Shown piece after piece: positions 15,279 to 17,127 of a stretch of 64,000 bases of DNA. Each line of letters begins with the position of its first letter. Within the stretch, counting starts at the first letter, position 1. The DNA comes from Eunapius fragilis. Lineage: Eukaryota; Porifera; Demospongiae; Spongillida; Spongillidae. Made by a program: the position numbers and the translations under genes. The notes beneath the pieces were generated by a model that made no database searches, was not told the origin of the DNA, and worked only from the letters and a program-made list of their open reading frames with translations. The DNA is taken from the NCBI GenBank assembly GCA_963681505.1, contig OY811971.1, positions 20,332,138-20,396,137 on the forward strand, written 5' to 3'.

Positions 15279-15698
15279 ACAACAGATCTTTCAAAACACA
15301 GAAATATTGCATGTGAAGAGAAACTCGATTCTATATTATAATTGATCTTGCATGTGTACTTTAGAAAAAAATGGTTCAACAATTCAATGAAGCCGAATTC
15401 TTTTAACGTGCCGCGATCATGGTACTAGTCATGTCCTATGTCCGTCATCATTTAGAACTCATGGAATGATTGAAGAAAACAATGACACGCCTCTGATTTC
15501 TGGATGTTCAATCCAACAATGATCTTTCAGAAGATTTTATAAAATTCTGTATGAAATCAAAACTTGATTACACCCGTTCTTTTTTTCCTGTGTACACTGT
15601 ACAAAATCAAACAGCTAGACAAAGCACAGTCGTGAAACGCATCGTAAAGGTGATATACAAAGGATTTTTAAAGCATCCATGCATCAATAGCAATAGCC

Positions 15699-15799
15699 TA
15701 GTCTCGTACCCAGACCCACGCCACAGCAGCGGGTGGATTACATCACCGCTACGTGGAAGTAGGGTCTGGAGAATCTCTCGGCAAAATCGTGGCCAGTGG
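15699..15799 (+). repeat. Left 101-bp terminal inverted repeat
   Basis: Exact reverse complement of 16795-16895. It begins TAGTCTCGTACCCAGACCC and ends GTGGCCAGTGG. Confidence 0.97.
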
Positions 15800-15861
15800 A
15801 ATGTAATGATTAACATTAATTCACACCACTGTCACGCGCTGCGGGTGACTAGGCAATTAAA

Positions 15862-16161
15862 ATGGCTTTATTGTGCGTTATGTGTGGCTTTCAGTCGGTG
15901 CCGAAGCAGAGAAGGTTATTGCACAGCACCTCTACAGTTTACGTATTACCCTTGCTGAGGCGACTAACGCACGATAGAATGGACGTCGATATCGATGTAC
16001 CTTTCAGTGTGCTTTGTATAAGATGTTTTAGGTTGCTTGATAAATGCATCAAATTGAAGCGCGAACTAGATTTGGCGGAGCAAGAAGCAGCAGCTTGTGT
16101 TAAAGTGGTGTCTGATACATATACAGCTCCGGAAGTTCATACTAAGAAAGAGGTCATCTGA
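15862..16161 (+). CDS. Small CxxC/CxxC zinc-finger-like protein inside the long-TIR element
   Basis: A 99-residue ORF. Its ATG is 63 bp inside the left TIR. CVMCG near residue 5 and CIRCF near residue 53 form a possible four-cysteine zinc site, followed by a helical, charged segment (KLKRELDLAEQEAAA). The layout resembles the zinc-finger-associated (ZAD-like) N-termini of animal DNA-binding proteins, but I cannot confirm the family. It stops 147 bp before the convergent RecQ fragment. It may be a captured exon or a small element-encoded DNA-binding protein. Confidence 0.5.
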   Translation: MALLCVMCGFQSVPKQRRLLHSTSTVYVLPLLRRLTHDRMDVDIDVPFSVLCIRCFRLLDKCIKLKRELDLAEQEAAACVKVVSDTYTAPEVHTKKEVI

Positions 16162-16308
16162 TAATCGTAGTAACCTAGTGGGTAATCAATTGTCACCTGC
16201 AGTGTCGGTAAGATGAGTTGGATAAGCAAGCTTGTACATAATTTACACTGATTATAATCAACAGATTGTTGTGAACCAACCTAAACGAAGAAGACTTTTC
16301 CCTTTACG

Positions 16309-16698
16309 CTACTTATCCTCTGTCAGCAGCATTTCGGGGCTGATGAACACAAACTGATATCTGCCTTCCGCTACCCTGTCTAGTAGAAGGGCATCGCTGT
16401 TTGCGTCTCCTGCATGCACTGCTGTAGCATCTCTCCTTGTTAGTGCTTCGATCTGGTCCTTCATTAACGCGTGCAAGGGACTAACAACGATGACTACTGA
16501 CCCATCGGTTCTTCCCGCTCGTCTGTCGAACAGTGCATGTAGGCAGGATCCAATAGCAGAAGGACTTCCCGCTTCCAGTTGGTAAGAAACGAAGACATCA
16601 CAACCACTCATAAAGGCTTCAATAGCTGCTCGCTGGTCAGGAGTTACACACTGAAAGCCAAGCTTGATTGCAGCGTAGGTGATCTCGTCTGAATCCAT
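16309..16698 (-). pseudogene. N-terminal fragment of a RecQ-like DNA helicase lacking the Walker A motif
   Basis: A 129-residue ORF. AAIKLGFQ and PDQRAAIEAF resemble the RecQ motif 0, VVIVVSPLHALMKDQI is motif Ia, and FVFISPEMLLT is the segment just before motif II. RecQ helicases unwind DNA using ATP. Where motif I (a GKS/T loop) should be, after GCDVFVS, the sequence instead gives SYQLEAGSPSAIGS with no GK[S/T]. The ORF ends before DExH. It therefore cannot be an active helicase. It lies wholly inside the long-TIR element and begins just inside the right TIR. Confidence 0.7.
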
Positions 16699-16794
16699 AT
16701 ATGATTACGAACGCGTGACTGTCACGCGAAAAATTCAATTAAAATCACTAATTGCGCATGCTCGCAATCCGATTGGAACGTTCAGATTCGAACG

Positions 16795-16895
16795 CCACTG
16801 GCCACGATTTTGCCGAGAGATTCTCCAGACCCTACTTCCACGTAGCGGTGATGTAATCCACCCGCTGCTGTGGCGTGGGTCTGGGTACGAGACTA
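16795..16895 (-). repeat. Right 101-bp terminal inverted repeat
   Basis: Exact reverse complement of 15699-15799. It lies 97 bp upstream of the RecQ-fragment ATG and so could hold that ORF's promoter (inference). Confidence 0.97.
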
Positions 16896-17127
16896 GCAAT
16901 AGCCTGCTTGTCTGCATGAAGCTGCTGTACAGACATGTCGAAATCGCGGTTCGCATTAATGATTATCAACGCATCATACACAGTGGGGGGCGTTGCCGTT
17001 GGGGTGCATTTTTGGAATAATAGCATGGATCTCGTGATCTTACGTTCACTCATGTGACCTTAGCGATTTATTATTGTGTGGGAGGCAAAAGAGTGCTGCG
17101 CGTGTATGGAATAAAAAAAAATAGAAC

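Follow-up and report, generated by a model that had tools for sequence, protein, structure and literature searches.

The window studied here (64,000 nucleotides of Eunapius fragilis, contig OY811971.1, positions 20,332,138 to 20,396,137) contains a 1197-bp unit, at 15699-16895, that is very probably a non-autonomous internal-deletion derivative of a cut-and-paste DNA transposon of the AcademH type. An initial annotation of this DNA had seen in it a Pack-MULE, that is, a Mutator-type element with a captured fragment of a host RecQ helicase gene, and had named as the alternative that the helicase belongs to the transposon itself, as it does in Academ elements; it is this alternative that stands. 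The unit belongs to a known kind, of which it is an ordinary member, and its helicase fragment is not host-captured.

The window element and its long relative

The evidence that carries this comes from the comparison with L014, a 5.36-kb copy located within C1:3452603-3459962. The left end of L014 matches bases 1-608 of the window element and its right end bases 606-1142, with 4.2 kb between them; the window element is an L014-like structure minus one internal stretch, the halves being joined at a TTA microhomology. On its plus strand L014 carries a ZAD-like exon and an open reading frame (ORF) of 463 amino acids (aa) matching DUF6589 (PF20231, E 4.4e-36), and on the minus strand, convergent with that gene, RecQ pieces matching the Pfam families DEAD, Helicase_C and RecQ_Zn_bind; the PDB chains of RecQ, WRN, BLM and RECQ1 agree with this, as does a TIGR00614 score of 122.9 bits, which lies below the whole-protein cut-off. 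Since L014 holds both halves of the window element along with the rest of the two genes, each window ORF is the 5' end of a gene belonging to the element itself.

The 99-aa plus-strand ORF with its CxxC pairs is exon 1 of the gene for DUF6589, the presumed transposase; its only Pfam match is a sub-threshold one to zf-AD (ZAD), at E 0.081, and the exon 1 region is 20 bp shorter than in L014. The 129-aa minus-strand ORF matches Pfam DEAD at E 2.7e-6, with 27.7 bits where the cut-off is 26; its description as a RecQ-like N-terminus holds good, Pfam identifying a helicase fragment and L014 making it the N-terminus of the element's own RecQ. Its Walker A loop had been thought to be replaced. The same DNA as in L014 is present there but is read out of frame, one base being missing ahead of the loop and four extra bases behind it restoring the frame. 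Among the 18 short copies, the start of the helicase is recognisable in eight (TGSGKS in frame in four and TGSGKP in one, the frameshifted window copy, and two that end earlier), while none was detected by the pattern used in the other ten.

The terminal inverted repeats (TIRs) of the window element show 100% complementarity over 101 bp, and one flanking base also pairs, for 102 bp. They had been placed correctly to the base, and the direct repeat on both flanks and the two convergent ORFs within the unit were likewise found as described (Table 1). No second copy of the element was found in the 64-kb window.

Table 1. Parts of the window element and its flanks (window coordinates)
Feature	Position	Strand	Remarks
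Target site duplication, left	15690..15698		GCAATAGCC, 9 bp
Left TIR	15699..15799	+	101 bp, starts TAGTCTCGTACCCAGACCC
Exon 1 remnant of DUF6589 (presumed transposase) gene	15862..16161	+	99 aa; ZAD-like CxxC N-terminus
Putative intron 1	16208..16264	+	57 bp, GTAAGA...AACAG; spotted by eye
Internal deletion junction	16304..16306		TTA on either side in L014; some 4.2 kb of the long type lost
N-terminal piece of the RecQ helicase native to the element	16309..16698	-	129 aa; Walker A out of frame
Right TIR	16795..16895	-	101 bp
Target site duplication, right	16896..16904		GCAATAGCC, 9 bp

Deletion junctions were read in seven short copies, including that in the window. The junction of L009 is almost the same as the window's, L010, L011 and L012 share another one (AAA), and L026 has TT; ten copies of 1.4 kb have yet another junction, together with a 253-bp insert. 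The related copies hold parts of one common interior, that of L014. At the deletion junction of L013 there is a 27-bp filler, most of it a piece of TIR end (L013:921-948).

Copies in the genome and the DNA nested in them

A search of the assembly (219 Mb in 24 contigs) gave at least 159 matches for the whole element and at least 44 for the TIR alone, 40 candidates being scored per search. Examined were 37 loci, made up of 36 stretches fetched around matches and the window copy, and 26 of them are two-ended. One end pair per locus enters the count of duplications; where TIR fragments gave additional pairings, as in L013, L021 and L022, these were dropped, and the 11 loci whose fetched stretch had no usable end pair (L014, L017, L029, L030, L032, L034-L037, L039 and L043) are left uncounted, the locus of L039 having been refetched later as L045, with both ends then present. 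An exact 9-bp duplication flanks 22 of the 26 two-ended copies, including the window copy, and in two more, L023 and L024, eight of the nine bases match; two of the 22, L011 and L018, sit in TG repeats and are uninformative. The duplications vary in sequence from copy to copy, and their length, which had been expected at 7-9 bp, is consistent at 9 bp across copies. All two-ended copies but one (L010) start with TAGTCTCGT, and 25 of the 26 finish with ACGAGACTA. The smallest derivative among them is a 118-bp unit (L044:4833-4950) that has two TIR ends, almost no interior and the exact duplication CCCCCTTCC.

Identity of the two TIRs had been taken as a sign of recent movement. For the window copy this is not established, its nearest listed relatives being L015, at 98.4% over 1038 aligned bases, and L009, at 98.3% over 1178 (gaps uncounted).

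Several copies contain foreign DNA. A 253-bp insert with inverted ends of 35 bp (L015:1132-1384) lies at one site in L015, L016, L019, L023 and L024 and at a second in L018, L020, L021, L025 and L027; with 40 of 327 candidates scored, 38 further full-length places are listed, 8 in these copies and 30 elsewhere. In L033 the foreign stretch is 2.5 kb long (L033:3010-5540) and its bases 1-2523 recur at 12 other places, and of the stretch in L038 (L038:4945-8385) the leading 2.2 kb recur at 13 others; five ORFs from these two interiors gave no Pfam match at E up to 0.1. The foreign stretches of L022 and L031 were compared with the fetched loci only. Since the foreign DNA of L015, L033 and L038 consists of genomic repeats, nested insertion explains it better than capture of host genes.

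DUF6589 and RecQ in diverged families

DUF6589 has 116 matches listed in this genome and none in 14 control genomes, a weak control, as the nature of the controls is unstated. Against those 116, the partnership with RecQ was tested in four families represented by six stretches (L014 and L045-L049), the pairs L046/L047 and L048/L049 having been chosen from the match list because the members of each scored equal. L045 is a 4995-bp relative with the exact 9-bp duplication GCGCCAGTC and TIR arms that are 96.8% alike over 94 bp; its RecQ, with TGSGKS and DEAH in frame, is convergent with DUF6589. The same convergent arrangement is seen in L046, L048 and L049, where RecQ was found by tblastn; that of L047 was read solely through its alignment to L046 (99.8% identity over 5301 bp). 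Long TIRs and exact 9-bp duplications are present in all four loci from L046 to L049, with ends TAGTCTCGTCCCCAGACCC or TAGCCTCGTCCCCAGGCCC. Identity of the DUF6589 proteins to that of L014 is 57.5% for L045 (measured as L039), 37.7% for L046 and 27.1% for L048. That three diverged families share this plan and the 9-bp duplications argues that the helicase is native to these elements, and RecQ is a regular part of those examined.

One 4.7-kb DUF6589/RecQ element is found 100% identical at two different sites (L048:2950-7657 and L049:2198-6905), each time with its own exact 9-bp duplication, which indicates very recent movement in this genome. Adjoining it in L048 is a 566-codon open frame (L048:8203-9900) which by eye looks like a reverse transcriptase of the long interspersed element (LINE) kind.

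The DUF6589 proteins of L014, L045, L046 and L048 have in common the D of GGD, the D of DWH and the D and E of DLHxEH, and GDNIDK is common to the three that align there. DUF6589 may be a DDD/E transposase whose catalytic triad would be drawn from these acidic residues. A search of viral contigs with the DUF6589 protein of L014 found no relative.

Origin of the short copies and classification

Imperfect gap repair after excision is known for P and Ac/Ds elements, and the multiple independent internal deletions with microhomology seen here would fit such a process. The starting point would be a long type of about 5 kb, with long TIRs starting TAGTCTCGT and convergent genes for a presumed transposase (ZAD-like/DUF6589) and a RecQ helicase; imperfect gap repair may have removed its interior, leaving a short copy which retains both ends, could be mobilised in trans by the proteins of long copies, and would duplicate 9 bp of its target when it inserts. 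The short copies have the look of passive passengers, moving, if at all, with long-copy proteins, and the window copy is probably passive. A different role would be that the truncated ORFs are kept as a repressor, in the way that KP elements of the P family have a repressor consisting of a DNA-binding N-terminus without a catalytic domain; ten of the 18 short copies do have exon 1 open over 122-124 aa, and the window copy has it open over 99 aa. Set against L014, however, the 18 exons show unique substitutions of which 28 are nonsynonymous, 10 synonymous and one a stop, proportions near to the 70/26/4% expected with no selection, and the ten 1.4-kb copies alone show 14, 3 and 1. The numbers are small and have little power, but no selection on this ORF is detected in them; the substitution counts lend the idea of a selected repressor no support, and we consider it highly improbable.

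The capture of a host gene fragment by a Mutator-type element can be weighed against the same set of copies. MULEs have long TIRs and duplications of about 9 bp, both of which are present here, and some copies do hold DNA absent from L014. What speaks against capture is that RecQ lies convergent with DUF6589 in the four families examined, that the long copies (L014 and L045) encode DUF6589 and yielded no Pfam hit to MULE with E up to 0.5, and that the foreign interiors of L015, L033 and L038 are repeats with many other places in the genome. The copies share parts of the interior of L014, that of the window element consists of the family's own two genes with no captured host gene seen, and the copy-specific captured fragments that characterise Pack-MULEs were not found among the copies examined. 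A common RecQ/CxxC interior combined with a non-MULE transposase had been named beforehand as the outcome that would speak against capture, and this is what the related and the long copies contain. A Pack-MULE is rejected on the strength of the long copies and of the foreign interiors examined, which proved to be repeats, and we assign it next to no probability. Kolobok elements insert at TTAA, and an element resembling KolobokH, although it would share the RecQ helicase, was rejected for the varied sequence of the 9-bp duplications, which do not correspond to that target; such an element, stated in PMC9587614 to be confined to fungi, is very unlikely. Somewhat less so, though still unlikely, is a separate and undescribed superfamily having DUF6589 and RecQ, which would resemble AcademH just in its helicase and the length of its duplications. 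In its favor, no paper mentioning DUF6589 was found in the literature searched, and the likeness to AcademH is one of helicase and duplication length; on the other side, PMC10045372 ascribes to AcademH a helicase with duplications of 9 or 10 bp. A fuller version, which we hold to be just as doubtful, would make this a cut-and-paste superfamily distinct from AcademH, with DUF6589 as its transposase, that looks recently active in this genome, having copies identical over 4.7 kb at two sites, and sheds several independent internal-deletion derivatives, the window element among them.

Several observations weigh against the reading preferred here, a deletion derivative of an AcademH-type transposon. 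Two of the 26 two-ended copies, L010 and L015, have no duplication. No DUF6589 match was obtained in L033 (3605 bp) or L038 (3888 bp), although both are flanked by exact duplications. The right TIR of L014 lacks its outer 55 bp, which makes L014 a damaged relative and not a demonstrated parent. The catalytic role suggested for the conserved acidic residues is read from their conservation, and the placement in AcademH follows from RecQ and the 9-bp duplication.

The claimed Pack-MULE gives way to a simple deletion product of a transposon that carries a helicase. In addition, DUF6589, a Pfam family of unknown function, is now linked to a convergent RecQ inside TIR elements with 9-bp duplications, a link by which DUF6589 proteins and orphan RecQ-like fragments could more readily be annotated as transposon genes; the gain in annotation for DUF6589 is small.

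AcademH, a lineage of the Academ superfamily, is reportedly the subject of a 2020 paper by Kojima (Mob DNA 11:15) whose title covers animals and fungi. Two traits stated for that lineage are found here: exact duplications of 9 bp (22 of the 26 two-ended copies, L045, and all four of L046-L049) and a helicase (RecQ in L014 and L045, and tblastn matches in L046, L048 and L049). According to PMC10045372, duplications are 9 or 10 bp in AcademH and 3 or 4 bp in AcademX, the two lengths being tied to a helicase and a nuclease, respectively; AcademX, also an Academ lineage, thus differs from the 9 bp and RecQ of the present elements, and no XPG match was listed at E up to 0.5 among the scanned ORFs of the long copies L014 and L045. 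Helicases are noted in fungal AcademH and KolobokH in PMC10799480, and KolobokH, as a DNA transposon of the Kolobok group in which RecQ is an accessory helicase (PMC9587614), resembles our elements in that one respect. With AcademH, as described in PMC10045372, they share both a DNA transposon that encodes a helicase and the range of duplication length, 9 bp here and 9 or 10 bp there, the window copy differing in that it is internally deleted and has no complete gene.
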